Positions 911 to 63,700 of a stretch of 64,000 bases of DNA are shown here, in pieces; within the stretch, counting starts at the first letter, position 1; every line of letters begins with the position of its first letter. This stretch comes from Candidatus Poribacteria bacterium. GTDB taxonomy: Bacteria; Poribacteria; WGA-4E; JAJDTR01. Where the stretch lies: contig JAPPIK010000020.1 of assembly GCA_028820655.1 (NCBI GenBank), forward strand, positions 1-64,000, read 5' to 3'. The notes under the pieces are model-generated. The model saw only the letters and a program-made list of their open reading frames with translations. It did not search any database and had not been told where the DNA came from. Position numbers and translations under genes: made by a program.

Positions 911-1951
911 ATGATTAAAGCGATTGACTTCTTCTGCGGGGCGGGCGGTTTGACGAGAGGTCTGTTAGATGCCGGAATCTCGGTGTTAGCTGGCGTAGAT
1001 AACGATGAGCACTTAGAGCGAACCTATTCTCATAACAATGTACCAAGTCGTTTCATCAATAGCGACATCAAGGACATTAATATCCACGCGCTCCGCGAAG
1101 CACTAGAGATTCAATCCGGGGATACAACGCTCTATGCTGCATGCACGCCGTGTCAACCGTTCTCGACCCTCAACAGACTGAAGGGCAATGATGAGCGAAA
1201 AATACTCCTTCTGTCATTTGCGCGAATCGTAGAAGAATGCCCGCCTGATTTCGTTCTGGTTGAAAATGTGCCGGGGCTGAACAACGCATATGGGAGGGAA
1301 ATCTCTCAACGATTTCTGAATATACTGAGGAGGTGCAGGTTCAAGGAGGCGGCGGATTTTCTTGATGCGAAGGATTTCGGAGTACCTCAAACGCGCAAAC
1401 GATTCATCCTTGTTGCCTCCCGTCACGGCTCAATCTCGCTGCCCGATTCTGGTTCAGATGGCAAAGATTATCCAACAGTCAGGGAATACATTGAAAAGTA
1501 TCCTGTAATTTCTGATGGCGAAGCATCGGCAGATTATCTGAACCATGCCGCAAGGAAACTTGCGCCCCATCACAAGCGTATTGTCGAAGCAATACCTAAA
1601 AACGGAGGTAGCCGCCGCGATGTGGCTGATACGTCGATACTTCTGAAGTGTCATCAAAAGAAACCTAACGTACACAAAGACGTATTTGGACGAATAGCAT
1701 GGGATGCCCCTGGACCAACCTTAACGTGTCGCTGCACGGATGTCTACTGTGGTCGCTTTGTACATCCGGAACAAGACAGAGGAATCTCATTGCGTGAAGC
1801 TGCCGCCCTTCAGACGTTTGAGGATGACTACGAATTTTTCGGCACTCACATTCTCGGGATATCGCGCCAAATCGGCAATGCTGTCCCCGTGAAATTTGCT
1901 GAACATTTGGGAAACTCAATCATTGACTCGCACCGATACGACCGGAGGTAA
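911..1951 (+). CDS. DNA (cytosine-5-)-methyltransferase
   Basis: IDFFCGAGGLTRGLLDAG (SAM motif I), TPCQPFS catalytic motif, ENVPG motif, C-terminal RQIGNAVPV motif; upstream RBS-like GAAGGAGGG. Confidence 0.95.
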   Translation: MIKAIDFFCGAGGLTRGLLDAGISVLAGVDNDEHLERTYSHNNVPSRFINSDIKDINIHALREALEIQSGDTTLYAACTPCQPFSTLNRLKGNDERKILLLSFARIVEECPPDFVLVENVPGLNNAYGREISQRFLNILRRCRFKEAADFLDAKDFGVPQTRKRFILVASRHGSISLPDSGSDGKDYPTVREYIEKYPVISDGEASADYLNHAARKLAPHHKRIVEAIPKNGGSRRDVADTSILLKCHQKKPNVHKDVFGRIAWDAPGPTLTCRCTDVYCGRFVHPEQDRGISLREAAALQTFEDDYEFFGTHILGISRQIGNAVPVKFAEHLGNSIIDSHRYDRR

Positions 1952-1954
1952 TGT

Positions 1955-3904
1955 ATGAGCCAAGTTAGAGATGGTTCAAAAAACCCATATAAGATGGAGT
2001 TTGATGTTGGTACGATTAAACACCTCGGTCTGCAGATGTATTCAACGCTGCCGCCGGTTATTGGTGAATTGGTAGCCAATGCCTGGGACGCTAACGCAAC
2101 GAAGGTTGATATTAAAATTCCATCAGACCGAATCAACGAAGATACCTCAGAAATTGTCATAAGCGACAATGGCGACGGTATGTCGGATAACGATATACGG
2201 GAAAAGTACCTCAAGATAGGACGGGATCGACGCGAAAATGGACTATTTGATGAGACCGATCCCCCGTTCCGTCGAAAGATAATGGGGAGAAAAGGGATCG
2301 GAAAATTCTCGGCTTTTGGCATCGCGAGGGAAATCGTTATAGAAAGTATGCAGAATGGGGAAGTCATCCATTTTCGAATGAATTACGATGAGATACTAAA
2401 GAAGGCCGATGAGCGAGAGATTTTATTCTCTCCGCGACCACCTTCTGGAAACGTACCTGAAGGAACGAGAATCACACTCAAGTATATTACAAAATTCAAG
2501 AGTCGCCCAATTTCAACCGACATAATCCGACGAGGGCTTGCACGCCGCTTCGCCATTATCGGCCCAAATAACGAATTTGAGGTGGTGTTAAATGGCGAGC
2601 CAATTTCGCCGGAAGACCGCAATTTGAAACGACTACTCGAACGAGATACGAATGGTAATCGGTATCTGTGGGAATACAATGACGAAATAGAGCCAAACAC
2701 CGGCTGGATAGTGTCCGGCTGGATTGGCGCACTAAAACGTACGTCGCAGGACATTGATGGAATAGACCGAGGAATCGCCCTTATGGCAAGAGGTAAGTTG
2801 GTACAAGAACCGTTCGTTTTCGATGCGATTGTCGGTCAGCAATATGCGCTGTCATATCTCATAGGCGAACTTCATGTTGAATTTGTAGACGAAAAAGAAG
2901 ACACGATAGGAACAACCAGAAACTCATTGGTATGGGACACGGAAGCAAACACTGCGCTAAAGGAATGGGGCAAGAATGAGATCAATAAGATAGCTCGCGA
3001 ATGGGCGGACAAACGCAGTAAAGACAATGAGACGATACTACAAAAAAACGAGTTATATATTGACTTTCAACGGCGAACAAGAGAAATTGGTAACAAGCGT
3101 GCATTCAAACTTGCGGATCAGTTAGTGCGCCAAGCTTTCACGAAGAATCCTACAGCCGAAGTCAAAGAAGTTGAACCGGTGATTGAAACGTCTTTGGATT
3201 TTCTGGAATTTGATGCCTTCTGGGAGATTGCCCAAGAACTAACCCGAGCGGATCTTGAAGACACTGAAAAACTCTTTGAGTTGTTTCGGGAATTGGAAAT
3301 TTTTGAAGCCAAAGAAATGGCACGGGTTACCCAAGGGCGGATAACGGCCATTGAGAAACTTCAAAATCTGATAGTTGAAAACGCGTTGGAATTCCCAACT
3401 CTCCACAATTTCTTGAAAGAATTCCCTTGGGTAATTGATCCGCGTTGGACACTGGTCGATGACCAAGTTACGTATAGTAAGCTACTGCGCGATAAATTTC
3501 CGGAAAGTCGCAACGTACCCGAGGAAAACAAACGAATAGATTTTCTATGTGTGCGTGAGGGGACAAACTTGGTTGTCGTGGAGATAAAACGCGCGAAATC
3601 AAGTGTTTCCAAGGAGGAACTTGACCAAATAGAAGAATACGTCAACTTTCTCCGCGATCACATTCAATCGACAACTGACCCTGTGTACGGTTACAAGGAA
3701 GTCACGGGATATCTCCTATGTGGTGATTTGGTAAACACCTATCAAGCAAGAGGCAAGCGTGACAATTTGGAAAAAGCGCAGATTTACGTCAGGCGATATT
3801 TGGATTTGCTTGCGATGGTAAGAAAGGCGCACGCTGAATTTCTAGATAGGTATAATCAACTTCGAGAGGCAAAGCAAAACGCGACAAAGGATGTTGCTAC
3901 TTGA
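1955..3904 (+). CDS. GHKL (HSP90/MORC-like) ATPase with C-terminal PD-(D/E)XK/DUF4263-like nuclease domain; probable restriction-associated protein
   Basis: ELVANAWDANAT, ISDNGDGM and GRKGIGKFSAFG match the GHKL N, G1 and G2 boxes; C-terminal IDFLCVREGTNLVVVEIKRA fits D-x(n)-ExK; starts 3 bp after the methyltransferase stop. Confidence 0.85.
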   Translation: MSQVRDGSKNPYKMEFDVGTIKHLGLQMYSTLPPVIGELVANAWDANATKVDIKIPSDRINEDTSEIVISDNGDGMSDNDIREKYLKIGRDRRENGLFDETDPPFRRKIMGRKGIGKFSAFGIAREIVIESMQNGEVIHFRMNYDEILKKADEREILFSPRPPSGNVPEGTRITLKYITKFKSRPISTDIIRRGLARRFAIIGPNNEFEVVLNGEPISPEDRNLKRLLERDTNGNRYLWEYNDEIEPNTGWIVSGWIGALKRTSQDIDGIDRGIALMARGKLVQEPFVFDAIVGQQYALSYLIGELHVEFVDEKEDTIGTTRNSLVWDTEANTALKEWGKNEINKIAREWADKRSKDNETILQKNELYIDFQRRTREIGNKRAFKLADQLVRQAFTKNPTAEVKEVEPVIETSLDFLEFDAFWEIAQELTRADLEDTEKLFELFRELEIFEAKEMARVTQGRITAIEKLQNLIVENALEFPTLHNFLKEFPWVIDPRWTLVDDQVTYSKLLRDKFPESRNVPEENKRIDFLCVREGTNLVVVEIKRAKSSVSKEELDQIEEYVNFLRDHIQSTTDPVYGYKEVTGYLLCGDLVNTYQARGKRDNLEKAQIYVRRYLDLLAMVRKAHAEFLDRYNQLREAKQNATKDVAT

Positions 3905-5015: not shown

Positions 5016-5227
5016 CAGCCTCTAATAGCCCCGGAGGGGATCAATCGAACGGATAGAGAGTGCGATAGAGATCTTGAAGGTGTGTAGAAATGCCAAAACC
5101 CCGTACCCTAAGCCCCCGCGGGGATCAAGCGAGCGGACAACGAGCGCGATAGAGTTCCCACAGGTATATGGCGGGAAATCACAAGACGTGTCGGCAAATG
5201 ACCAAAAATGGCTAGACTACGGACTTT

Positions 5228-8799: not shown

Positions 8800-9370
8800 A
8801 TCCGTGAATTCCGCCTAATCCGCGATTCAGACAATCCCTCCTCCTATCCCCCGACCCGCCTCCTCGTCTTCCTCTCTCTCCACTAATCACTCTCCACTGC
8901 TTTTCCCCCCTTCCACGCCTTCCAATCTTCCTCCCCTACCCTCACAAATCGCCCAACACCCCGCTTTTAATCCGCGAAATCCGCCTAATCCGCCTAATCC
9001 GCGATTCAGACAACCCTCCCCCTTCCCCTCACACCTCCGCCCCTAATCCTGCCAATCCCCAAATCTCATAAATCACAGTTCAGACAATCCCCGCTCCCTT
9101 ACCTCGCCTGCCATCCTCCCTTTCATCCCGTTTTCGCACCCTCACGAATCGCCCAACAACCCGCCTCTAATCCGCGAAATCCGCCTAATCCAGCAAGTGA
9201 GTGAATAGCGAGCGCGGTAGAGATCCCCTAATCCGCGATTCAGACAATCCTTCCTCCCATCCCCCGACCCGTCCCCTCGTCTTCCTCTCTCTCCACTCCC
9301 CACTCTCCACTGCCTTTCCCCCTCCTTCCCACTGGCCACTGACCACTAACCACTGACCACTGCCTCTCAA
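8800..9370. repeat. Further copies of the AATCCGC/C-T-rich repeat
   Basis: Repeats the text of 1-376. Confidence 0.85.
9192..9228 (-). repeat. 37-bp short insertion-like element (SIE) inside the AATCCGC repeat, flanked by TAATCC on both sides
   Basis: TAATCC-AGCAAGTGAGTGAATAGCGAGCGCGGTAGAGATCCCC-TAATCC; uninterrupted CCTAATCCGCGATTCAG occurs at ~8 and ~180. Confidence 0.75.
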
Positions 9371-11869: not shown

Positions 11870-12165
11870 GTAGGAGATCAAAGGAATGAATAATGACTGC
11901 GATAGAAATCTTCTCCGAATCGCGACTCCCCTGTTGTAGCCGTTTGTAGGAGCGATCTCCGAATCGCGATTCCCCTGTTGTAGTTTGTAGGAGCGATCTC
12001 CCAATCGCGACTCCCCACTCCGTCGGCCGCCAACCGACCCCGGTAGGAGCGATCTCTAGGTCGCGATTTGGTAGTTGTAGGGTGCGCACCGCGCACCAGC
12101 CTTTTATCTGTAGGAGATCAAGCGAATGGATAATGAGTGATCAAGGGAATGGATAACGACCGCGA
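11870..12165. repeat. Cluster of REP-like units (GTAGGAGCGATCTCC-n-RTCGCGA), TTGTAGGGTGCGCACCGCGCACCAGCC units and SIE copies
   Basis: Several near-identical copies read directly. Confidence 0.85.
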
Positions 12166-12453
12166 TAGAAACCCCGGTTTCCCGCGCCGGATGCGACTAA
12201 AATGCCGACACTCGTGCCGGGACGCTGTCCTATTTTGTTTCTTTTCCACCGGAACCGTGCTACACTTCCCAAGATTGGTTTCGCCAAGCGGTGCAACGGC
12301 TGCAAACGGGCAAACGCCGCGCTTTACGCAGGTCAGCATGGCGATTCACGATAAAGCAAGCCTATGACGTGCAATCCGATTCTAAACACACCAAAATGAA
12401 AAGCGAATGACAGGCTTTCCGTCGCGCTGCCAAGGTTAAAGGGAGAATTACAG

Positions 12454-14964
12454 ATGAAAACGGCGCTAACGTTTCTTATCCTTCTCACTCTGATTCCACT
12501 CAACGCGTTTGCTCAAGACTCCCCGCAGTGGGGATTGCCAGACGACGCCCTCGCACGGCTTGGCAAGGGCATAATTTCGGGTAACATCGTTTATTCGCCG
12601 GACGGTAACCGGCTCGCCGTTGCCAGCGCCATTGGCGTCTGGGTTTACGACGCGACATCCTACGAGCCAATTTTCCTGCTCTCCGGTCATACGGAGGAAG
12701 TCACGAGCGTTGCCTTCAGTGTGGACGGCAACACAATCGCAAGCGCCGACGGCAATTGGGAAGAGGACAATCTCCGTTTATGGGACGCAGTGACCGGCGA
12801 AGAAAAATTCGCGCTCTCCGGAGGCTTTCTTGAGTTTGGCGCCATAGCGTTCAGTCCGGATGGGAAGACACTTGCCAGCACCGATTTTGGAGGAGTCAAG
12901 CTATGGGACACGGACACGGGCGAGGAATAGCGGGTGATCAAAACCGGACAGAGCTTTGCTAGCTTGGCGTTCAGTCCGGACGGCGAGACGCTCGCCAGCG
13001 GCGGGAGGTTGCAGGATGGCACAATCCGCCTCTGGGATGTGGAGACGGGCGAGGAGAAACTTTCTATCACGGAGGGTTCGGATTCGGCAGATCATCTTAC
13101 ATTTAGCTATGACGGAACAACCATCGCCAGCGCCGGCGGTTTTTCTGACTCGAACATCTATCTCTGGGATGCCGCCACGGGTGAACTGAAGCAAACCCTC
13201 GAGGGCAAAGAATATGAAGGCGTTACTAGCATCGCATTCAGCCGGGACAGCGCCACGTTGGCTAGCAGCACCGAATTTGGCGATTCCGACATTCGTCTTT
13301 GGGACGTGGAGACGGGGCAACAGAAGGGCTCAGTCACCGGTCACACTTCGGATGTCGTGGCCCTCGCGTTCAGTCCCGATGAGGTAACTATGGCGAGCGG
13401 CAGCGAGGATGGCAGCATCCGGTTTTGGGATTTTGAAGAAGCGAAACAAGAAGGGGCTATCACTGGTCATACGAGCGGGATTAACCGCCTCGCGTTCAGT
13501 TCGGACGGCACTACGCTGGTTACCGTCAATTATCACACGGTCGAACTTTGGGATGCCGCGACCGGTGAATTCAGGAACTCAGCCATCGAAGAAGGATTCA
13601 TCTTTCGTGCGGGATTGAGCGGGGATGGGGACACATTCGCTATTAGCGACTACGACGAATCCATCAGGCTGTTGGATGTCTCGACCGGAGATACCAAGAT
13701 AACACTCACCGGACATACCGATTCGGTTAACACTGTCGCGATTAGCTTGGACGGCAATACGGTCGCGAGCGCGAGCGGACCTCTGTTTGGGGATGGGGAA
13801 CACTCAATCTTCATCTGGGATGCTGTTGCGGGAGCACACATGCATACGCTAAGCGGTCATACCGGTGCCATAGAAGTCCTCGCGTTCAGTCCGGACGGAA
13901 ACCTTCTCGCCAGCGGAAGTGAAGATACTACCGTCCGCTTGTGGCACACCGCTGCAGGACTTCAAGCGTTTTCATTTGAACTTCACACCGATGCAATTAC
14001 CAGCTTAACCTTCAGTGCGGACGGGGGCGTTCTCGCAAGCGGGAGCAGAGACGGGACGGTCCGACTATGGAATATCGATACGGCGGAAAATGAACACACG
14101 CTGTCTGTGGATGCAATTTGGCCCGAAAGCGTCGCGTTCGGTATCGACGACGAGACATTTGCCGCGGGCACTTATGAGAATACGGTCGAATTGTGGGATA
14201 CAATGACGGGCGAACGTCAGGCTGTGCTTGACGGACATAGGGGGAGCGTCAACGCTTTGGCGTTCAATCCCGTGAACGGAATGCTTGCCAGCGGGAGCGA
14301 CGACGGCACGGTGCTGTTGTGGGATATCACGCTTGATACGGAGGTTGCCGTTCTGAAGGGCGACGTCAACAAGGACGGGGTGGTGGACATACTGGACTTG
14401 GTGTTGGTCGCGACACGGTTGGGGAGTACGGGACCCAACACCGCGGACGCCAACGGCGACGGAAACGTCAACATCTTGGACCTGGTGTTGGTCGCGGGCG
14501 AGATGGTCGTCGCGCCCGCCGCGCCGTCGATCCATTCAGGCGATATGGCGCTGTTACGCCCGAGCGAAGTGAAACAGTGGCTGGAAGAGGCGCGGGGTTT
14601 GGGTCTCGACGATGTCACCTCACTGAGGGGTATTCGGTTCTTGGAAGGCTTATTGGCGGTACTCACACCGAGGGAGACAGCGCTTCTGCCCAACTATCCG
14701 AACCCGTTTAATCCGGAGACGTGGATACCCTACCGGCTCGCAGCCGATGCGGACGTCCAGATCTCGATCTATGACGGCAGAGGCGTCCTGGTGCGGCAGT
14801 TGAATCCGGGACATCAGCAGGCGGGTCACTACATCGACAGAGGACGCGCGGCATACTGGGACGGTAAGAACGAGCACGCCGAAACCGTTGCGAGCGGCGT
14901 CTACTTCTACCAACTCCGCGCCGCGGATTTTTCGCACATGCGACGCATGGTGGTGGTCAAGTAG
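12454..14964 (+). pseudogene. Secreted WD40-repeat protein with dockerin-like repeats and FlgD/T9SS-like C-terminal domain, interrupted by one in-frame TAG (12928-12930)
   Basis: Both ORFs (12454-12930, 12934-14964) are in the same frame and WD40 repeats continue across the stop; DVNKDGVVDILDLVLV and DANGDGNVNILDLVLV; LPNYPNPFNPETWIPYRL...ASGVYFYQLRA. Confidence 0.85.
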
Positions 14965-20238: not shown

Positions 20239-20473
20239 TCAAAAGTTTAATTTCTCAGGTGGCCGTATCCCGCATCACAATTGACAGTAATGAGAATTTG
20301 CTCGAAAAGTACAATTGAAAGGTGCAATCAGGCGAGTGGATAACGAGTGATCAACCGACTGATTAAGGAGGGCGATAGAACTCCCATAGAGATCTTCTCC
20401 CTGTCGTGACTTGGCAGTTGTAGGGTGCGCACTGCGCACCAGCCTCTATAAGCCCCAGCGGGGCGACACCCAT

Positions 20474-22531: not shown

Positions 22532-22778
22532 GGTACGATCTCCTGAAAAGTGTAGGAGCGATATCTAGGTGTATCTACGGGAACGAATGGTGTTGGGTTT
22601 CGCTGCGGCCAACCCGATTTTGCACAATAGGGCGAGGGGACCTGGGATTTCTATCGCGGTCGTTATGGGAATTCTATCGCACTCACTATTCGTTCGTTTG
22701 ATTCCCTTGATCCCCTACGGGCACAACTGTTCACTCGGCTGAAGGGTCTGCGCGGGATCTCCGTGGGAGGCGAGCGTT

Positions 22779-25187
22779 TCAATTATTGTTTTGGACCTGG
22801 TTTACCACTAACACCAGGTCGAAGATATTGACAACCCCGTCTCCGTTCACGTCGGCGGTCGAATCGTCCGTGCCAAATCCTTGAGCCACCAACGTCAAGT
22901 CCAAGATATTCACCTCGCCGTCGTTGTTGAGGTCTGCCGGGTTTCGAGGATTGATTCTTATGTAAATCTCGCCGTCTAAGTTCGATAACTCGTGCTCGGT
23001 GCCTTGGATTCCGGAGGAGGCACCCCGCACCTTCTCCGGAAGGCGCAATATCCGCGCCTCTCCGCTGCGGTTGTACACCGCCCAGCCGTTCGTGAACTCT
23101 CGTATGAAAAGCCCCGGTTGGTCGTCGTAAGGCCGCGCCTTGTCTCCGATCGGACCGCCCAGGTTCGCATCCCAAAACTCGTACCAAAGCTTGACGGAAC
23201 GCCCCAGCACGCCAGTACCGTACTTGAAGTAGCCGTCGGAATGCGTAAGGTTAAGTGCCGTCGTGGCGCGCATCAGTCGGGAATTCTTTTCACTCAACAA
23301 ATACTCGCCGGGGATCGACCATACTTCCAAGCAGTTAATCTGCGGCGCCTTCAGATTCCGGTCTGCCCAGATGAGATGATTCTCAACCTCGATTAGCGCC
23401 CGTGTAATGATTCTGTCGTCGTGTGCGTCGTCCCACCTGTCAACTTTCAGTTCCAAGAAAATGCCGTTGACATAGTCCCCGATACCCGGGACGTTCCGCC
23501 AGCCGGCGCCGACCAAAATCAGGAACTCGTCACCGGTTTCGGCGCGGATGTGCCGCAGATAGTGCTCTCTTGCGGTTGCGAGCGCTTCATCGGCACGATC
23601 GCCTCGGGTACCTTGGACCTTGTCTCGCTCATCATTAAACATGATGCCATCGTACACGCCGCAGCGATAGACGGCGAGCGCACGTTGGAATTGTACATTC
23701 TCAACCGGCGGCCGCAAAAAATTCCCCGTGGTTGACACACCGGACGGCACCGAAATCAGGTACAGGAAATCTGGGTTTATGGATTGAGTTTTTTTCCTCT
23801 CGTATAAGGCGCCATCGATGTCCCCGCCAACCGTAACGGTCGTAGGACCGAACGCAAAATGCAATCTGAAGCCACGGGGCCCGTATCCGAGATCGTGGCG
23901 CGCCAATTTTGCGTTCGGAGAGTAGCGAATAACATCAGGAATCGGCAGGATTATCGAGGGGTAGTCTCGGTTGTTAATTCGATCGGCAATCGGGAGCCGC
24001 GGCACTGCGCAAGATTCGGTGTAGAAAAATCTCCGCAGCGAGAGTCCGTCAAGCGGACTGTGGTCCAGGATAGGATTATAACGTATGTATAACTCCTTCA
24101 AGTTTGACAGATTTGCCAGCGGACTCACATCTTCGATGCGGTTGCGCTCCAATGCCAATTTGGTAAGTTGCGCCAGATTGGCGAGCGGTCTTACATCCAC
24201 GATGCGGTTCGTACTCAATTCCAGTTCGGTAAGTTGTGCCAGGCTTGCGAGCGGTCTCACATCATCAATTTGGTTATTGTTCAGTTCCAAATAGGTAAGG
24301 TTTGCGAGATTCGCAAGCGCACTTATATCTCGCAGCCGGCAGCCGTTCAACTCCAGCGCGGTAAGCTGGGCCAGGTTGGCAAGGGGACCGATGTCCGTGA
24401 GTCGGTTGCCGCTCAAGTCTAATTTAGTGAGATTCTGCAGATTTGACAGCGCTCCGATTTCCTCGATCCAATTACTATCCGCCGCCAGCACCGTTAGGTT
24501 GCCGAGATTAGCCAGCGGACGAATATCAACAGTCCCGCAGCCGTTCAAATACAACTCGGTCAGGCGGGTCAAATTGGCTAGTGCGGAGAGATCCTCGATG
24601 AAGTTGTTGGATAGCCTCAATTCGGTGAGTTCGGTCATACCTTCGAGCGGACTAATGTCGCTAAACGAATTGAAACTGAGATTCAATACTTCGAGTCGCA
24701 CCATACCGCGGAGCGGCGCGATGTCTTCAATCCTGTTTAAGCGTAAGTTCAATTTTGTGAGACCAGTCAAGTTTGCAAGTCCGCTGATGTCTTCCAGGCG
24801 GCAGTCCCAAAGACTTAGCTCGCTGAGGTTCGCCAGATTTGCCAACGGGTTCAAGCTCTCAATGTTTAAGCATTCGCTCAAATCCAGTTCTCGAAGTCGG
24901 ATGAGGTCTTTTAAGGGGCTAATGTCAACAATCCAGTTGCGGTTTAACCGCAGGGAGGTTAGGTTCACGGCGTGTTCCAATCCGGAAAGGTTGATGATCT
25001 GCATGTGTACGGCATGCAACCGTGTCAATCGCCTCATGTCGGCTTCGGTGACAGGATCATCGAATCCCAACTTCAGGGTGTGTTGGATGGCGCGCCGGAG
25101 GTACAGGTCGGGGATTTCAACGAATTGGGCGTGAGCGGCGGCACAGAAAGCGAGCAGCAGGATGATGGCACAGATGTGTCGCAGCAT
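22779..25187 (-). CDS. Secreted leucine-rich-repeat protein with central TIM-barrel-like domain and dockerin-like C-terminus (copy 1)
   Basis: Signal peptide; many LANLTxLTxLxLNxN repeats; DLNNDGEVNILDLTLVAQ and DVNGDGVVNIFDLVLVVN. Confidence 0.85.
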   Translation of the reverse strand: MLRHICAIILLLAFCAAAHAQFVEIPDLYLRRAIQHTLKLGFDDPVTEADMRRLTRLHAVHMQIINLSGLEHAVNLTSLRLNRNWIVDISPLKDLIRLRELDLSECLNIESLNPLANLANLSELSLWDCRLEDISGLANLTGLTKLNLRLNRIEDIAPLRGMVRLEVLNLSFNSFSDISPLEGMTELTELRLSNNFIEDLSALANLTRLTELYLNGCGTVDIRPLANLGNLTVLAADSNWIEEIGALSNLQNLTKLDLSGNRLTDIGPLANLAQLTALELNGCRLRDISALANLANLTYLELNNNQIDDVRPLASLAQLTELELSTNRIVDVRPLANLAQLTKLALERNRIEDVSPLANLSNLKELYIRYNPILDHSPLDGLSLRRFFYTESCAVPRLPIADRINNRDYPSIILPIPDVIRYSPNAKLARHDLGYGPRGFRLHFAFGPTTVTVGGDIDGALYERKKTQSINPDFLYLISVPSGVSTTGNFLRPPVENVQFQRALAVYRCGVYDGIMFNDERDKVQGTRGDRADEALATAREHYLRHIRAETGDEFLILVGAGWRNVPGIGDYVNGIFLELKVDRWDDAHDDRIITRALIEVENHLIWADRNLKAPQINCLEVWSIPGEYLLSEKNSRLMRATTALNLTHSDGYFKYGTGVLGRSVKLWYEFWDANLGGPIGDKARPYDDQPGLFIREFTNGWAVYNRSGEARILRLPEKVRGASSGIQGTEHELSNLDGEIYIRINPRNPADLNNDGEVNILDLTLVAQGFGTDDSTADVNGDGVVNIFDLVLVVNQVQNNN

Positions 25188-25305
25188 TGGAGTTCTCCTC
25201 TATTCCGTGTTGATACCGCACTGGCGGGGATGGTGGAGCGGTGTCACGACCCGCCCGGACGATTATACAGGATTGGGACGAAGAATAACAGGAGGATCTG
25301 ATTCA
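25188..25305 (-). promoter_or_regulatory. Conserved upstream region of LRR copy 1
   Basis: Similar sequence precedes all three LRR genes (28590-28710, 31780-31890). Confidence 0.5.
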
Positions 25306-25580
25306 GAGCAGCCGTGTATGCCGTTGTTCTATAATGGCGATGCATCAATAGCGTCGATTGCCAGCGGAATCGTGGGGGAGGAAACCTCGCTCATAAGCGA
25401 TAGTCGCGACCTGGAAAAGATTCCTATCGTCCTCGTTATTCACTCGGTTGATCTCCTACAGGAGTGATTGGGTGATATTTGAGTGCAATCTAAGGATTGG
25501 GCGCGGGGCCCCCGAGATTTCTATGGGAGGTCTATCGTGCTCGCTATTCACTCGCTTGAATGCACCCTACAACTATTGAC

Positions 25581-25660
25581 ATTGCGCTCCGCTGGAGCGC
25601 GTAGACGGGTGTCGCTTGTTTCTATTGACATACCACTCCTAACGGAGTGGGGAGTCGCGA
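25581..25660 (+). repeat. Inverted-repeat pair element GCGCTCCGCTGGAGCGC...TTTCTATTGACATACCACTCCTAACGGAGTGG
   Basis: Same architecture at 29211-29293 and 50655-50740. Confidence 0.75.
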
Positions 25661-26156
25661 TTTGGAGAAGATCTCTATCGGATTTCTACCGCGCTCGCTA
25701 TCCACTCGCTTGCTGGATTTCTATCGCGGTCCTTATTCAGTCGCTTAATCAGTCATTATCCATTTCCTTGATCTCCTACAGAGGGAATCGCGATTTGGAA
25801 ATCGCTCCCACAGTTGGAGATCGCTTCTACGGATAAAAAGGCTGGTGCGCGGAAGATCCCTATGGGAATTCTGTCGCACTCACTATTCGTTCGTTTGATT
25901 CCCTTGATCCCCTACGAGATCGTCGCGATTCGGAGATTGATCCCACAGGAGTAAGTTTGCCGGGCACGAAGGGAGTTCGCTATCCATTCGCTTGAGTGCA
26001 CCCTATGGGTACGAATGGTGTTGAGTTTCGCTGTGCTCTAGCCAACCTACCAACTTCCAGAGGACATGGTGGGCAGGGGACTCTCTATCGCGGTCGCTAT
26101 CCACTCCCTTGATTCCACCCTACAGGTACTACGGGTATACGTGGGAGGCGAGCGTT

Positions 26157-28589
26157 TCAATTATTGTTCTGGAGCTGGTTTACCACTAACACCAGGTCGA
26201 AGATATTGACAACCCCGTCTCCGTTCACGTCGGCGGTCGAATCGTCCGTGCCAAATCCTTGAGCCACCAACGTCAAGTCCAAGATATTCACCTCGCCGTC
26301 GTTGTTGAGGTCTGCCGGGTTTCGAGGATTGATTCTTATGTAAATCTCGCCGTCTAAGTTCGATAACTCGTGCTCGGTGCCTTGGATTCCGGAGGAGGCA
26401 CCCCGCACCTTCTCCGGAAGGCGCAATATCCGCGCCTCTCCGCTGCGGTTGTACACCGCCCAGCCGTTCGTGAACTCTCGTATGAAAAGCCCTGGTTGGT
26501 CGTCGTAACGCCGCGCCTTTTCTCCGATCGGACGGCCCAGGTTAGCATCCCAAAAATCGTACCAATAATTGATGGAGGGCCCATTCCCGCCAACGCCGAA
26601 CTTGAAGTAGCCGTCGGAATGCGTAAGGTTAAGTGTCGTCGTGGCACGCATCCATTGGTGATTCTTTTCACGCCACGTATTCTTTTTACGCCACGAATTC
26701 TCATCGGGACCGGGCGCCGGCCATACTTCCAAGCAGTTAATCTGAGGCGTCTTCAGATGCCGGTCTGCCCAGAGGAGTAGATTCTCAATCTCGATTAGAG
26801 CCCGCGTGATTCTTCTGTCGTCGTGTGCGTCGTCCCATTTGTCAATTTTCAGTTCCAAGTAAATGCCGTTGACATAGTCCCCGATACGCGGGACGTTCCG
26901 CCAGCCGCCGCCGACCACAATCAGGAACTCGTCACCGGTTTCGGCGCGGATGTGCCGCAGGTAGTGCCCTCTTGCGGCTGCGAGCGCTTCATCGCTTCGA
27001 TTGCCTCGGGGACCTTGGATCTTGTCTCCCACACCATTAAACATGATGCCATCGTACACGCCGCAGCGATAGACAGCGAGTACACTCTGGAACTGTCTAT
27101 TCTTAACCGGCGGCAACAAGAAATTCGTCGAGGTTGACACACCGGCTGGCACCGAAAGCAGGTAAACGAATTCAGGGTTTACTGATAGAGCTCTATTCCT
27201 CTCGTATACGGCACCGCTAATGTTTCCGCCAACCTTAACGATCGTAGGACCGAACGCAAAATCCAAATGGAAGCCGCGGCCACCGTATCCGAGATCGTGG
27301 CGCGCCAATTTTGCGTTCGGAGAGAAGCTAACAATATGTGGAATCGGCAGGATTATCGAGGGGTAGTCTCGGTTGTTAATTCGATCGGCAATCGGGAGCC
27401 GCGGCACTGCGCAAGATTCGGTGTAGAAAAATCTCCGCAGCGAGAGTCCGTCAAGCGGACTGTGGTCCAGGATAGGATTATAACGTATGTATAACTCCTT
27501 CAAGTTTGACAGATTTGCCAGCGGACTCACATCTTCGATGCGGTTGCGCTCCAATGCCAATTTGGTAAGTTGCGCCAGATTGGCGAGCGGTCTTACATCC
27601 ACGATGCGGTTCGTACTCAATTCCAGTTCGGTAAGTTGTGCCAGGCTTGCGAGCGGGCTCACATCTTCAATTTGGTTATTGTTCAGTACCAAATGGGTAA
27701 GGTTTGCGATATTCGCAAGCGCACTTATATCTCGCAGCCGGCAGCCGTTCAACACCAGCGCGGTAAGCTGGGCAAGGTTGGCAAGGGGACCGAGGTCCGT
27801 GATTGCGTTGCCGCTCAAGTCTAATTCAGTGAGATTTTGCAGATTTGACAGCGCACCGATTTCCTCGATCCGATTACTATCCGCCGCCAGCACCGTCAGG
27901 TTGCCGAGATTAGCCAGCGGACGAATATCAACAATCCCACACCGGTGCAAATTCAACTTGGTGAGGCGAGTCAGATTGGCAAGCGCAGCGAGATCCTCGA
28001 TGACGTTTTGGGATAGGTTCAAGTCGGTGAGTTCGGTCATACCGGCGAGCGGGTCGGCGTCCAAAATATCATTCGAATAGAGATTCAATACTTCGAGCCG
28101 CACCATACCGCGGAGCGGCGCGATGTCTTCAATCCTGTTTAAGCTCAGATCCAATTTTGTGAGACCGGTCACGTTTGCCAGTCCGCTGATGTCTTCCAGG
28201 CGGCAGTCCCAAAGACTTAGCTCGCTGAGGTTCACTAGATTTGCCAACGGGTTCAAGCTTTCAATGTTTAAGCATTCGCTCAAATCCAGTTCTCGTAGTC
28301 GGATGAGATCCTTTAAGGGGCTAATGTCGACAATCCAGTTGCGGCTTAACCGCAGGGAGGTTAGGTTCTCGGCGTGTTCCAATCCGGAAAGGTCGCGGAT
28401 CTGCATGTGTACGGCATGCAACTGCGTCAATCGCCTCATGTCGGCTTCGGTGACAGGATCATCGAATCCCAGCTTCAGGGTGTGTTGGATGGCGCGCCGG
28501 AGGTACAGGTCGGGGATTTCAACGAATTGGGCGTGAGCGGCGGCACAGAAAGCGAGCAGCAGAATGAGCGCACAGATGTGTCGCAGCAT
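26157..28589 (-). CDS. Secreted LRR protein with dockerin-like C-terminus (copy 2)
   Basis: Very similar to copy 1; last ~110 residues nearly identical. Confidence 0.85.
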   Translation of the reverse strand: MLRHICALILLLAFCAAAHAQFVEIPDLYLRRAIQHTLKLGFDDPVTEADMRRLTQLHAVHMQIRDLSGLEHAENLTSLRLSRNWIVDISPLKDLIRLRELDLSECLNIESLNPLANLVNLSELSLWDCRLEDISGLANVTGLTKLDLSLNRIEDIAPLRGMVRLEVLNLYSNDILDADPLAGMTELTDLNLSQNVIEDLAALANLTRLTKLNLHRCGIVDIRPLANLGNLTVLAADSNRIEEIGALSNLQNLTELDLSGNAITDLGPLANLAQLTALVLNGCRLRDISALANIANLTHLVLNNNQIEDVSPLASLAQLTELELSTNRIVDVRPLANLAQLTKLALERNRIEDVSPLANLSNLKELYIRYNPILDHSPLDGLSLRRFFYTESCAVPRLPIADRINNRDYPSIILPIPHIVSFSPNAKLARHDLGYGGRGFHLDFAFGPTIVKVGGNISGAVYERNRALSVNPEFVYLLSVPAGVSTSTNFLLPPVKNRQFQSVLAVYRCGVYDGIMFNGVGDKIQGPRGNRSDEALAAARGHYLRHIRAETGDEFLIVVGGGWRNVPRIGDYVNGIYLELKIDKWDDAHDDRRITRALIEIENLLLWADRHLKTPQINCLEVWPAPGPDENSWRKKNTWREKNHQWMRATTTLNLTHSDGYFKFGVGGNGPSINYWYDFWDANLGRPIGEKARRYDDQPGLFIREFTNGWAVYNRSGEARILRLPEKVRGASSGIQGTEHELSNLDGEIYIRINPRNPADLNNDGEVNILDLTLVAQGFGTDDSTADVNGDGVVNIFDLVLVVNQLQNNN

Positions 28590-28710
28590 TGGAGTTGTCC
28601 TTTATACCGTGTTGATACCGCGCTTGCGGGACCGGTGGAGCGGTGTCACGACCAGCCCGGACGATTATACAGGATTGGGACGAAAAATAACAGGAGGATC
28701 TGATTCACAG
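28590..28710 (-). promoter_or_regulatory. Conserved upstream region of LRR copy 2
   Basis: Nearly identical to 31780-31890. Confidence 0.5.
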
Positions 28711-29210
28711 GAGCCGTTTCGGGTAGATTGATACACGGATGGCGTTCTTGCTGTGCGCGATTTCTTTTCAGTCCGCCTACGGTTTGGGTGAGGAAACCCG
28801 GGATTTCTATCGCGCTCGTTATTCACTCGCTTGATCCCTTACGGCGAAGGCATGAGCGGGCGGTCGGTTGATGGTCGCGATTCGGAGATCGCTCCTACGG
28901 GGGGTGGTTGGGTGATATTTGAGTGTAACCTACGGATTGGGCGCGGAAACCACGACCCTACGCCGGAGGTATGAGCGGTCGGTCGGTTGATGGTCGCGAT
29001 TCGGAGATCGCTCCTACAGGAGTGGTTTGACGGTCACGAAGGGAGCTCGTCAGTCATTCCATTGATCGCACACCGCGCAAAGTACAAAAGGCTGGTGCGC
29101 GGGGGAACTCTGTCGCACTCGCTATCCACTCGCTTGATTGCACCGTACAGTTGCTAAATCGCGACCGGAAGTTTCTTGGATATTCGGTCGCTTGATTGCA
29201 GTCTTTACCT

Positions 29211-29293
29211 CACATTGCACTCCGCTGGAGTGCGTCAATGAATATCGTCCGTTTCTATTGACATTCCACTCCTCTGGAGTGGGGAGTCGCGAC
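29211..29293 (+). repeat. Inverted-repeat pair element CACTCCGCTGGAGTG...TTTCTATTGACATTCCACTCCTCTGGAGTGG
   Basis: Two short hairpins separated by a conserved spacer. Confidence 0.75.
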
Positions 29294-29352
29294 CGGTGCG
29301 GATTTGCTATCGCCCCCGTTGACCACAAAGTTGATTTTTTGCCTGCCCGTGG

Positions 29353-31779
29353 TCAATCCCCTTCGTCTTCGATTCGGAGTTCGCCTGCCACAGCCACCAA
29401 ATCAAGAATATTAACCTGTCCGTCGCCATTCAGGTCCAGGCCGGGTATGTCGGTGCCGAAGCCTTGAGCCACCTGAATCAGGTCCAAAACATTCACTTCG
29501 CCGTCGTTATTGACGTCCGCTGGGGTTTGCCGTTTGATTCTGAGAAAGATTTCGCCGTCAAAGTTCGGCAGTTGGTGCTCGGCGGCTTGGACGCCGGCGG
29601 ATTTGCTCCTCACGTCCTCCGGCAGCCGTATCAACTGCGTCTCGCCGCTGCGGTTGTACACCGCCCACCCGTTCGTGAACTCGCGTATGAAGAGTCCGGG
29701 ACGATTATCGTAGCGCTGAGCCATCTCGCCGACGGGGCGTCCGAGGTCAACATTCCAGAACTCGTACCAATCCGCGCCGGAAAGCGCACGCGCACCGGTG
29801 CCAAACTTCATGAAGCCGTCGGAGTGCGTAAGGCTCAGTGCCGTCATGGCGCGCATCCAGCGTACATTCGTCTCGCTCCACGAATATTCGCCGGGAAACG
29901 ACCAACCCTCCAGGCAGATGATTTGAGGCGCCTTGAGATTCCGCTGCGCCCAAAGGAGTCGATTCTCCATCGTGATTAGAGTTCTTTTCGTGCCGTTGCT
30001 ATCCTGTTTCCCGTCCTCGCCGCCGACTTTTAGCTCCAAGTATAGCCCGTTCACATAGTCCTCGATTCGCGGGACATTCTGCCAACTGCCGTTAGCCAAA
30101 ATCAGGAACTCGTCTCCAACTTCAGATCGGATGCGGCGCAGGATGTTCTCCCTCGTGCCGATGATCGCTTGTTCGCTCCAGTAACCCTCATAATTTTGGA
30201 CGTAATCTCTCCCATAATCAAAGACGATGCCGTCGTACAAGCCGCAGCGATAGATGGAGAGCGCTCGCTGGACAATGATATCCTGAACCTCCGGTTGAAC
30301 AAAATCAACCAAAAACCCATCAGCCGTTTCCTGGAACCACCCCCTCTCGTCAAGGATATAGTGCGGTGAGTCATAGCGTAATTCGCGGTATGATAATCCG
30401 ATCATTGGCACTGAAATAAGGTAAATCAAGTTGGGGTTTACGGAGCGTATCTTGTTTCGCTGCATTACCGCACCCTCAATGTATCCGCCAACCGTAGCGG
30501 TAGTCGGACCGTGTGCGTAATGCAAGCCGAAGGCTTCGCCGCTGAATTGGAGATCGTGGAGCGCCAGATGTTCCTGCGGTCCCGAATCATAAAGATAAGG
30601 CCACGGCAAAATTATGGATGGGAAGTCTCTATTGTTAATCCGATCACTGAGCGGAGGGCGCGGCTCTGCGCAAGGCGGGGTGTAGAGAAATCTCCCTATT
30701 GAAAGCGCTTCAAGCGGGCTATAGTCGAGGATAGGATTAAAGCGTATGGCTAACTCCTCCAAGTTTGTCAGATTCGCGAGCGGGCTCACGTCCTCAATGC
30801 GGTTGTTCTCCAATACCAGTTCGGTAAGTTGTGTCAGGCTGGCAAGCGGGCTGACATCTTCAACACTGGCTCGTAGGTCCAATTTCGTAAGTTTAGTGAG
30901 ATTCGCGAGTGCGCTGATATCCCGAATCGCACCGCCGATTAACTCCAACTCAAGGAGTTTCGTCAAGTTGCCTAGCGGACGGATATCTCTGATCCGGTTG
31001 GCGCCAAGGACCAATTTTGTGAGATTGGTTAGATTTTCCAAGGGGCTGATATCCGCGACCCTGTTATAGGACAGGTCCAGTATCCTGAGATTCGCCAAAT
31101 CCTGCAGCGGACGTATATCAACAATCGAATTCCCGTTGAGATACAACTCGGTAAGGCTGGTGAGACCAGCGAGAGGGTTGACATTATCAATGCCAAAATT
31201 GGCGAGATGCAGTTGGCGGAGCTGTGTGAGTTTGGCAAGAGGACGAATGTCCCCGGTATAGTTGTAGCTCAAATAGAGGGTGCGGAGTTGTGTGAGATCT
31301 GCGAGCGGGCCAATGTCCCGAATCCGGTTCTGAACCAGGTTTAATTCGGTGAGACGAGTCAGGTTTGCGAGTGCACTGATGTCCTCGATGTCGCAGTCCC
31401 AAAGACCAAGTACGCTGAGGTCCACTAGATTCGACAACGGGTGCAAGTTCTTTAAGCTTGAGCATTGGCTCAAATCCAGTTCTCGAAGTCGGCTGAGGTT
31501 TTTTAAGGGGCTAATGTCAACAATCCCGTTGCGGTTTAACCGCAGGGAGGTTAGGTTTACGGCGTGTTCCAATCCGGAAAGGTCGATGATTTGCATGTGT
31601 TCGGCATGCAACCGCGTCAATCGCCGCATATCGGCTTCGGTGACAGGATCATCGAAACCCAGTTTCAGGGTGTGTTGGATGGCGCGCCGGAGGTACAGGT
31701 CGGGGATTTCAACGAATTGGGCGTGAGCGGCGGCACAGAAAGCGAGCAGCAGAATGAGCGCACAGATGTGTCGCAGCAT
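29353..31779 (-). CDS. Secreted LRR protein with dockerin-like C-terminus (copy 3, more diverged)
   Basis: N-terminal ~70 aa nearly identical to copies 1 and 2; DVNNDGEVNVLDLIQVAQ and DLNGDGQVNILDLVAVAG. Confidence 0.85.
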   Translation of the reverse strand: MLRHICALILLLAFCAAAHAQFVEIPDLYLRRAIQHTLKLGFDDPVTEADMRRLTRLHAEHMQIIDLSGLEHAVNLTSLRLNRNGIVDISPLKNLSRLRELDLSQCSSLKNLHPLSNLVDLSVLGLWDCDIEDISALANLTRLTELNLVQNRIRDIGPLADLTQLRTLYLSYNYTGDIRPLAKLTQLRQLHLANFGIDNVNPLAGLTSLTELYLNGNSIVDIRPLQDLANLRILDLSYNRVADISPLENLTNLTKLVLGANRIRDIRPLGNLTKLLELELIGGAIRDISALANLTKLTKLDLRASVEDVSPLASLTQLTELVLENNRIEDVSPLANLTNLEELAIRFNPILDYSPLEALSIGRFLYTPPCAEPRPPLSDRINNRDFPSIILPWPYLYDSGPQEHLALHDLQFSGEAFGLHYAHGPTTATVGGYIEGAVMQRNKIRSVNPNLIYLISVPMIGLSYRELRYDSPHYILDERGWFQETADGFLVDFVQPEVQDIIVQRALSIYRCGLYDGIVFDYGRDYVQNYEGYWSEQAIIGTRENILRRIRSEVGDEFLILANGSWQNVPRIEDYVNGLYLELKVGGEDGKQDSNGTKRTLITMENRLLWAQRNLKAPQIICLEGWSFPGEYSWSETNVRWMRAMTALSLTHSDGFMKFGTGARALSGADWYEFWNVDLGRPVGEMAQRYDNRPGLFIREFTNGWAVYNRSGETQLIRLPEDVRSKSAGVQAAEHQLPNFDGEIFLRIKRQTPADVNNDGEVNVLDLIQVAQGFGTDIPGLDLNGDGQVNILDLVAVAGELRIEDEGD

Positions 31780-32518
31780 TGGAGTTGTCCTTTATACCGT
31801 GTTGATACCGCGCTTGCGGGACCGGTGGAGCGGTGTCACGACCAGCCCGGACGATTATACAGGATTGGGACGAAAAATAACAGGGCGATCTGATTCCGAG
31901 CGGCTGTTTCGGGTAGATAGAAACACGGATGGGGTTCTTGCTGTGCGTGATTTCTTTTCAGTCCGGCTACGGTTTGGGAGAGGAAACCGCGTCCCGACGG
32001 CGGAGGCATGAGCGGTCCGTCGTTTGATGGTCGCGATTCGGAGAAGATTTCTATCGTCCTCGTTATTCACTCGGTTGATCTCCTACGGGGGTGGTTGGGT
32101 GATATTTGAGTGCAACCTACAGATCGGGCGCGGCGACCGCGTCCCTACGGCGAAGCGTGACCGGCCGGTCGGTTGAAGGTCGCGATTCGGAGATCGCTCC
32201 TACAGGGGTGGTTGGGTGATATTTGCGTGCAACCTACGGATTGGGCACGGAGCCCCGGGATCTCTATCGCGCTCGCTATTCACTCGCTTGATCCCTTACG
32301 GCTGAGGTATGAGCGGCCGGTCGGTTGATGGTCGCGATTCGGAGATCGCGCCTACAGAAGTTGGTTTGCCGGTCACCAAGGGAGCTCGTCAGTCATTCCA
32401 TTGATCGCACCGCGCAAAGTCCAAAAGGCTGGTGCGCATGGGAATTCTATCGCACTCCTTATCCAGTCGTTTGATTGCACCCTACAAAGAACTCCGCTCA
32501 GCAATTAATCAACCCGTG

Positions 32519-34420: not shown

Positions 34421-34683
34421 AACAATTCCTCCCGAATTATAAGGATAACGGCAATTCGTCGATTCGCCGAGTCGTACGCTGGATTTACTTTCGTCCTCCC
34501 GAGTCAGTCGGATGATCACTCATTATCCATTCGCTTGATACCACCGTTTCCTGCCGGCTTATGGTCGCGACCGGGAGGTCGCTCCTACAGAAGAGGTTGG
34601 GTGGTATTTTAGTGTATCTACGGGAACAGATGGAGTTGGGTTTCGCGGCGCTCTACCCAACCTACGAATCGGGCGCGGGCCCC

Positions 34684-35135
34684 GGGATTTCTATGGGACT
34701 TCTATGGGAGTTCTATCGCGGTCATTATCCATTCGCTTGATACCACCGTTTCCTGCCGGCTGATGGTCGCGACCGGGAGGTCGCTCCTACAGAAGAGGTT
34801 GGGTGGTATTTTAGTGTATCTACGGGAACAGATGGAGTTGGGTTTCGCGGCGCTCTACCCAACCTACGAATCGGGCGCGGGTACCCGGGATTTCTATGGG
34901 ATTTCTATAGCGCTCGCTATTCATTCGCTTGATCCCCCACGTCTGAGGTATGAGCGGCCGGTCGGTTGATGGTCGCGATTCGGAGATCGCTCCTACGGGG
35001 GTGGTTGGCTGATATTTGAGTGTAACCTACCGGTTGGGCGCGGGTACCCGGGATTTCTATGGGATTTCTATGGGAGTTCTATCGCGGTCATTATCCATTC
35101 CCTTGATCACTCGCTATTCACTCGCTTGATCCCCT
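34684..35135. repeat. Dense SIE array with iterated GGGATTTCTAT heads, plus REP-like units
   Basis: GGGATTTCTATGGGACTTCTATGGGAGTTCTATCGCGGTCATTATCCATTCGCTTGAT and variants. Confidence 0.8.
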
Positions 35136-38159: not shown

Positions 38160-38310
38160 AGCAGTGGAGAGTGATGGGTGATGAGTGGAGAGCGGAAGGG
38201 GGAAAAAGCAGTGGCCAGTGCCCGGTCGCCAGTGATCAGTGGGGAAGGGAAGAAGACAGGAAGATTGGAAGAGAGATGGGAGGAGGGATTGTCTGAATCA
38301 CGGATTACGG
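38160..38310 (-). repeat. Inverted copy of the AATCCGC/C-T-rich repeat
   Basis: ...GGGAGGAGGGATTGTCTGAATCACGGATTA. Confidence 0.75.
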
Positions 38311-38389
38311 GATCTCTACGGGAATTCCACGGGATTTCTATCGCGGTCGTTATTCACTTCCTTGATCGTTCGCTATTCACTCGCTTGCT
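38308..38389 (+). repeat. Composite SIE (82 bp) inside the inverted AATCCGC repeat, flanked by GGATTA on both sides
   Basis: GGATTA at 38302-38307 and 38390-38395; nested head and tail segments. Confidence 0.7.
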
Positions 38390-41669: not shown

Positions 41670-42266
41670 GCCGGTATAGGCGCCAAGCTGGATGTAGAGG
41701 TCGTATCGAGCGGCATTAATTTATACATGCTGATGGCTGGGGATTCCTCGGCTACACGGAAAATTCTTGTTAGGTCGAAGCATATGGGAGCAAACCGGAA
41801 AAGCCGGGTTTCTTTATCAAACTCGGCTTTCTCTGTACAATTTTGGAAGATTGGACGATTGGAGGGTGGTGACCTAGGGAATAGGTGAGCGGGACCAAGA
41901 GGCGGACAGAAGATTGGCGGTGGCGGGGGAGATACAGTGACCAGTGGATCTCTACCGCACTCGCTAATCACTCGCTTGCTGGCTAGTGGAGAGGCGGACG
42001 TGCGGGTTGTCGGGCGTTTGCCGGAGGTACGGAGGAATGGTAGTCTATGAATCTCTAAGGGTGTTGTATTGCAGGGGATTGGGCGCGGGAATCCAGGATT
42101 TCTATGGCGGTCGCTATTCGCTCGCTTGATGGTCGCGATTCGGAGATCGCTCCTACTCCCTTGATCCCCTACGCGATGATCGCGATTCGGAAATCGCTCC
42201 CACAGATCGGTTGTGTGATACTGCGGTATGTTGACCGCAAGGGAGGCTTCTATCGCACCGTACCAT

Positions 42267-46367: not shown

Positions 46368-46667
46368 TCATTGTTTGAGATTGTGAATGGCATAGTTACT
46401 GATGTGTTCATCCAACTTCTGTTCAACTTCTGTTAGATGATTCGCCAGATTTGCGTGATCCGATTTCATTTGTTCGCGCAAATCGTCTATACGCTTGTCG
46501 AAGCGTGTGCCAAGATCGTCTATGCGCTTGTCGAAGCGTGTGCCAAGATCATCTATACGCTTGTCGAAACGTGTGCCAAGATCGTCGATACGCTTGCTGA
46601 GAATTGTGTTAAAAGCCACCATGACCGCAATAATAACGGCCGGGGGCAGCCAGGTTTCGATAGACAT
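46368..46667 (-). CDS. Membrane-anchored coiled-coil protein with three KRIDDLGTRFD units
   Basis: MSIETWLPPAVIIAVMVAFNTILS(KRIDDLGTRFD)x3 KRIDDLREQMK. Confidence 0.7.
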   Translation of the reverse strand: MSIETWLPPAVIIAVMVAFNTILSKRIDDLGTRFDKRIDDLGTRFDKRIDDLGTRFDKRIDDLREQMKSDHANLANHLTEVEQKLDEHISNYAIHNLKQ

Positions 46668-63214: not shown

Positions 63215-63700
63215 ATATAACTTGCCTTCCGCATTATCGAGCACCTAAAAGTTTGATTTCTCATGTGGCCGTGTCGCGCACCATTATTGACAGAAATGAG
63301 CCCGTTTGAAAAGTACATTTGTAGGGTGCGCACTGCGCACCAGCATTTAAAAGCCCCAGAGGGGATCAAGCGAATGGATAGTGAGTGCGATAGAGATCTT
63401 GAAGGTGTGTAGAAATGCCAGAACCCCGTGCACCTAAGCCCCAGAGGGGCAACAGGTACATAGCAGACAACAATAAAAGCACGAAAAACCTTCCTACGAA
63501 TGAACAAAATGGCTCTGCTACCGATTATTCAAACAGGCTCTAAAGCTGATGATGGAAGGGAAAAACGGTCAATCAATCGGACTCGGGGTAGTATCTCGGT
63601 GATTTTTGGTCGTTCGAGGAGATACGCCCAAGATCTAGTATGTGAGAATTTGAGATTACACAAGTCTATTATGCGGATGATAAGTATAACTTTAGTCGGT
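63215..63700. repeat. Second, shuffled copy of segments at ~20220-20330, ~5040-5240 and ~20570-20660 (IS-end-like)
   Basis: CTTCCGCATTATCGAGCAC, GATAGAGATCTTGAAGGTGTGTAGAAATGCCA, GGTGATTTTTGGTCGTTCGAGGAGATA. Confidence 0.7.

Follow-up and report, generated by a model that had tools for sequence, protein, structure and literature searches.

The window analysed here, a stretch of 64,000 bp, corresponds to C32:1-64000 of a 5.88 Mb genome in 61 contigs (G000) from Candidatus Poribacteria, a sponge symbiont. Its genes include a cytosine-C5 DNA methylase adjoining a 649-aa GHKL-ATPase protein (HATPase_c_3) at 911-3904, possibly a modification/defence pair, and two large WD40 beta-propeller proteins at 12934-14964 and 35148-37052; eukaryote-like repeat proteins of the WD40 kind are known in Poribacteria. 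Three consecutive ORFs of similar size (802-810 aa) lie at 22779-31779. Two of them carry 66-bp internal repeats, and scanning of two identified each as an LRR protein that has a dockerin type I domain. Tandem repeats are present at 1-349 (a 172-bp AATCC-bearing unit in two copies), 34520-34908 (a 202-bp unit in two copies, 97% match) and 46482-46596 (a 33-bp unit in 3.5 copies).

At 9192-9226 a TAATCC host repeat is broken by AGCAAGTGAGTGAATAGCGAGCGCGGTAGAGATCC, after which CC and TAATCC come next. The host repeat, CCTAATCCGCGATTCAG, is intact at positions 7, 179, 8814 and 8993, in agreement with the copies that the earlier note had placed at about 8, 180 and 9000, and has seven matches with at most three mismatches in the window against 0.16 expected. 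The site is composed of the following features:

9140..9245, + strand: interrupted host repeat with AATCCGNNT units and a TTCAG end; its intact paralogue is at 8950-9009
8969..9009, + strand: empty-site paralogue, AATCCGCGA AATCCGCCT AATCCGCCT AATCCGCGA TTCAG, with the extra unit present without an insert
9192..9226, + strand: 35-bp element of the AGC type; head 9192-9214, tail 9215-9226 (CGGTAGAGATCC)

The insert is real and not a product of chance, being one member of a large genome-wide family: its 24-nt core occurs eight times in the window (0.00 expected), and 88 copies with at most three mismatches in 33 positions are found throughout G000, compared to none for the reversed pattern. The earlier note had described a 37-bp element inside another repeat. 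Its discrete nature, sequence and coordinates hold, but the length is best defined as 35 bp, because the near-identical paralogue 200 bp upstream (8969-9009) reads AATCC-G-CCT-AATCC and the occupied copy AATCC-[35 bp]-CCT-AATCC; the paralogue thus carries CCT without an insert and the extra CC is host sequence. The proposal that TAATCC represents a 6-bp target-site duplication has to be abandoned, since the flanks match the 9-bp periodicity of the host itself and the extra unit is present in the neighbouring paralogue even without an insert, as the note's own caveat of a pre-existing duplication had suspected. A comparison of interrupted and intact AATCC copies points the same way and yields the result that the note had itself named as refuting its reading. 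The flanking duplicates follow the host period rather than a constant length, corresponding to host units AATCCGNNT, with CCTAATCC in GCCT hosts and GTAATCC in GTGT hosts. Elsewhere, a cluster of AATCC/ATTCAGAC repeats spaced by about 87 bp and present on both strands (L082:3900-5700) is free of element interruption.

The window contains about 40 copies of the element. Heads matching the exact pattern number 664 in G000, 521 in G001 (Candidatus Poribacteria MAG jk18x1bzbins.36, of the same genus as G000) and 164 in G004 (MAG RHO2_bin_7), with zero matches for the reversed pattern. A PWM scan of 1.23 Mb of G000 yielded 339 copies and, at the same threshold, none in the reversed sequence. The density of 2.0 copies per 10 kb on two almost fully read contigs corresponds to about 1,200 per genome, and G000 thus probably contains more than 1,000 copies by this extrapolation. 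Copies avoid genes: only 14 of the 339 lie in ORFs of at least 200 aa, against 242 expected.

The complete unit measures 35 bp and combines a 23-nt, hairpin-forming head with a 12-nt tail, CGATAGARATCC. The head follows the pattern ATCAA-ss-GA-ss-GRATA-ss-GA-ss-G, in which four covarying pairs flank a conserved GA/GA and the loop is GRATA. From a gap-free alignment of 37 window copies, RNAalifold recovered, unaided, the pairs 6-22, 7-21, 10-18 and 11-17 with compensatory changes. Hairpin cells are paired in 93.2% versus 67.9% in shuffles, 39 cells versus 9.3 are altered on both sides, and covariation amounts to 0.84 versus 0.33 (0/500 shuffles as high), slid controls being far lower. Mutual information over 325 copies ranks 10-18, 7-21 and 6-22 as the top three column pairs. 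About 86% of copies carry GA/GA at positions 8-9 and 19-20, which holds for G001 and G004 too. From this covariation the head is predicted to fold into a short hairpin that has two G.A pairs in tandem and GRATA as its loop. One fold additionally contains an outer ATC/GAT stem, and MFE folding of single copies is unremarkable and uninformative. Two subtypes are distinguished, an ATC head with a CGATAG tail and an AGC head with a CGGTAG tail. A CsrA-type GGA loop was considered and dropped, as about half of the copies carry GAA; Rfam gave no match at the gathering threshold, the best sub-threshold match being irrelevant.

AATCC repeats and CCACTGA heptamers serve as hosts of the element, as do GTAG-tagged REP-like palindromes and its own copies. 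Besides the insert described above, the window provides these examples in other repeats:

11877..11911, + strand: copy that interrupts a GTAGGAG-CGA-TCTCC REP-like palindrome, of which an empty copy begins at 11935
32045..32079, - strand: copy in the GTAGGAG-CGA-TCTCC REP type; an empty copy with matching flanks lies near 34960-35007 (- strand)
41948..41980, - strand: AGC-type copy inside CCACTRR heptamer repeats; an exact heptamer empty site is known for L134:8458
63365..63397, + strand: copy within a CCCCnGAGGGG palindrome, a host type present at 5040-5072 as well

In G000, occupied and empty pairs are available for GTAGGAG-CGA-TCTCC, GTAGGGTGC-GCA, CCCCGGAGGGG-CG-GAAGG, CTCCAGCGG-AGT and the CCACTGA heptamers. 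The net gain is mostly +34, with +32 in GTAGGAG-CGA-TCTCC (REP-A) and +35 in the heptamer, and in most hosts the element takes the place of 1-5 host bases; a constant target-site duplication is absent across these host pairs. A single orthologous pair (n=1) shows a plain REP in G001 where G000 has the element. A general preference for the loops of host hairpins was rejected: flank pairing (-7.60) is only slightly stronger than that of mismatched flanks (-7.23, sd 0.14), and in one host the insertion lies in a stem arm.

The element also inserts into its own copies, and the window holds the following nests:

12117..12174, + strand: nested pair; heads 12117-12139 and 12140-12162, tail 12163-12174
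20327..20395, + strand: nested pair; heads 20327-20349 and 20350-20372, then the inner and the outer tail, CATAGAGATCT
35051..35130, - strand: nested pair; two heads (35108-35130, 35085-35107) and three tails (35073-35084, 35062-35072, 35051-35061)
38310..38389, - strand: AGC-type parent split by an ATC-type insert, inside a TAATCC host; parent head 38367-38389, insert head 38344-38366 with an ATAG tail, outermost tail CGTAGAGATCC of the GTAG type
22670..22712, - strand: element inserted in the loop region of another copy's head

The distance between successive heads shows sharp peaks at 23 and 35 nt. Neighbours spaced by 35 nt resemble one another, like tandem duplicates, whereas those spaced by 23 nt differ more than permuted partners (P=0.003), and the 23-spaced nests are therefore not tandem duplications. 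Such nests reach five heads in a row, and 147 chains were counted in G000 and 113 in G001 against 0 for the reversed pattern. Tail number tracks head number (Fisher p=1.8e-11, and in G000 and G001 separately, with copies that are not fully independent): single heads have mostly one tail, two heads have at least two tails in 31/49 cases and three heads have three tails in 4/6. The subtypes provide the most telling test: in nests with equal numbers of tails and heads, they match in bracket order (Fisher 1.3e-10). An outermost ATC head goes with an outermost ATAG tail in 50/50 nests, an outermost AGC head with a GTAG tail in 11/13, and inner ATC heads with ATAG tails in 60/60. This places the parts in the order H1[H2 T2]T1, a newer unit having entered an older one where head and tail meet. 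At the start of the parent tail the change is nearly constant: tails begin with CG in singles (295) and inner tails (63/63), whereas the outer tail begins with C in 53/69 and with TG in 12/69.

Successive stages of this process are preserved as well. Before/after pairs that agree in their flanks, their outer head and their outer tail were found for L199 versus L085, L113 versus L062 and L259 versus L101, and where one host occurs both nested and un-nested, a single unit (net +34) separates the two. In the case of the host palindrome CCGGTAGGTGCGGTTTCTAACCGCACCGG (GTAGG), copies are empty (L113, L013), occupied by one unit (L085), nested (L040/L199) or filled by a tandem run (L150). L199 and L085 were rejected as orthologous loci, since only about 200 bp are shared, and are copies of a dispersed host repeat. 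A rarer second nesting site is the loop of the head instead of the head/tail junction (L065:5439-5520 and the window copy at 22670-22712, - strand).

Unit insertion, nesting at a fixed junction and conservation of structure are documented by these data. We propose, with a probability of roughly three in four, that the family is a very small non-autonomous, SDR-like mobile element of 35 nt, made of a head hairpin and a tail, which would move as a folded single strand. The unit inserts whole, mostly intergenically, into other repeats and its own head/tail junctions, and the newly arrived unit ends up flanked by the head and tail of its parent, which match each other. If the moving strand is indeed single-stranded and folded, the hairpin would for that reason stay base-paired while its sequence drifts. 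A putative nuclease or transferase may cut near G^CG and replace 1-3 nt.

Other explanations have to be weighed against this proposal. The unit could be a passive passenger of composite GTAG-tagged REPs that are moved by RAYT/TnpA-REP, with gene conversion or recombination producing the nests. GTAG lies at most 20 nt upstream of 36% of the isolated copies versus a background of 4%, copies occur within about 1 kb of 4/7 Y1 genes in G000 (random rate 23%, not significant) and the net gain is constant per REP type (REP-A +32, most others +34). Yet, many hosts are not REPs at all (AATCC, CCACTGA heptamers, the own head/tail junction), very different members of the element occupy nearly identical hosts, and element-free relatives have Y1 genes as well. 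In addition, the bracket matching and the before/after pairs that differ by one unit require insertion of one unit, and we consider a passenger origin unlikely. A functional structured RNA or protein-binding array, the hairpins of which are selected for regulation and spread by tandem duplication, would agree with the strong compensatory change, with the dissimilarity of neighbouring hairpins, with the resemblance of 35-spaced copies to tandem duplicates and with a bias of the G000 copies towards the sense strand of the genes flanking them (54 versus 26 gaps, p=0.002). This bias is absent in both G001 and G004, however, the 23-spaced nests keep bracket order and are not duplications, Rfam provides no match and the presence is patchy, most of the phylum being without the element, making selection of this kind improbable.

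A conventional transposon or MITE-like insertion with a 6-bp target-site duplication is suggested by TAATCC on both sides of the insert (9186-9232), but is highly implausible, as this duplication follows the host period, no constant duplication is found elsewhere and no terminal inverted repeats are seen. Even less credible is an assembly artefact of short-read MAGs. Repeats assemble poorly, the genomes are MAGs and some matches are located on small contigs that are probably misbinned. Nevertheless, the family recurs with the same structure and nesting in separately assembled MAGs from two studies (jk18x1bzbins.36 and RHO2_bin_7), and structures of 35-80 nt are well inside read length.

With regard to how the proposed SDR-like mobile element would move, an ssDNA route, by an HUH/Y1-type enzyme or by fork-associated insertion, seems slightly favoured over an RNA route, since no RVT_1 reverse transcriptase was found in two of the three genomes rich in the element. 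RVT_1 (PF00078) has no match in G000 and G004 and one sub-threshold match in G001, as judged for one HMM family in 95-96% complete MAGs. Y1 transposases are encoded by G000 (7), G001 (4) and G004 (3), and by most element-free relatives too, and in the Y1 tree no clade is restricted to genomes that bear the element. Lagging-strand transposition would predict a strand bias with GC skew, of which none was found. IS200/IS605 elements insert cleanly, whereas the Poribacteria element replaces 1-5 bp of its target. No polymorphism was seen within a strain, and present-day activity is accordingly putative. The availability of element-rich and element-free relatives allows for comparison in the search for the enzyme.

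The closest known kind appears to be the cyanobacterial SDR elements (SDR1-SDR8), to which we liken the family by features and not by sequence homology, filing it as SDR-like on that basis. Reportedly described in 2008 by Elhai and colleagues as "very small mobile repeated elements" in Nostoc and related cyanobacteria, SDRs are said to measure tens of nucleotides (21-27 nt), to occur in many dispersed copies, to form a hairpin with compensatory changes, and to be embedded in heptamer and other repeats and nested in their own copies; the authors reportedly favoured RNA intermediates for their spread. The Poribacteria element shares the compensatory-change hairpin, the embedding in other repeats, including heptamers, and the self-nesting. 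Its head measures 23 nt and its full unit 35 nt, with 664 exact-pattern heads in G000. It differs by its occurrence in another phylum, a separate tail split from the head by nesting, a copy number of probably more than 1,000 per genome, two head/tail subtypes and the near-constant change of CG to C or TG. No RVT_1 match was found in G000 and G004, which speaks somewhat against RNA intermediates. A passage in PMC4390886 gives SDR5 a precise insertion point in HIP1, GCGATCGC, comparable to the G^CG junction of the Poribacteria element, and a passage in PMC3116915 groups SDRs among unexplained short repeats. A distinct, DNA-borne class of about 35 nt, unrelated to SDRs and RT-free, of which a putative enzyme would recognise the G.A hairpin and insert site-specifically at the own head/tail junction, so as to produce the self-nested brackets, is a tentative alternative that we regard as less likely than not.

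GTAG-REPs and REPINs with their RAYT (PMC3733652, PMC3116915) are also short, intergenic, high-copy and structured, and REP-like GTAG palindromes are frequent hosts of the element. REPs are defined by a GTAG tag and stems of 6-13 bp (PMC3733652), whereas the element lacks both a 5' GTAG and such a stem, its own consisting of 2 bp, GA/GA and 2 bp; GTAG is absent from the ATC type and confined to the 3' tail in the AGC type. Moreover, the element inserts into REP-like palindromes, the arms of which it can break, and appears to have no RAYT clade of its own. MITEs of bacteria are likewise small, non-autonomous and dispersed, but the element is far smaller and has neither terminal inverted repeats nor a constant target-site duplication. 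No paper on this family in Poribacteria was found within a partial coverage of the literature. The mobility of 20-40 nt DNA or RNA fragments is the question posed by the cyanobacterial SDRs. To this question the family adds an unrelated phylum, a copy number probably above 1,000 per genome, two natural subtypes marking the partnership of head and tail, and before/after stages in one host repeat. Owing to these subtypes and stages, the insertion unit and the junction become measurable.

The distribution of the element is patchy, with matches in only 7/85 Poribacteria genomes. In G014, G010, G068, G069 and one alphaproteobacterial MAG the matches are few and mostly on short contigs, which in otherwise element-free genomes are probably misbinned Poribacteria contigs. 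The few copies concerned lie on L067 and L042/L047 (G085, G014) and, in G010, G068 and G069, on small contigs; horizontal transfer is the less likely alternative. Within G000, the first 100 kb of contig C15 (L069-L074, G000:C15:1-120000), syntenic with C20 of G001, contain no copies, and other 20-kb stretches contain up to 13, frequently all on the same strand.
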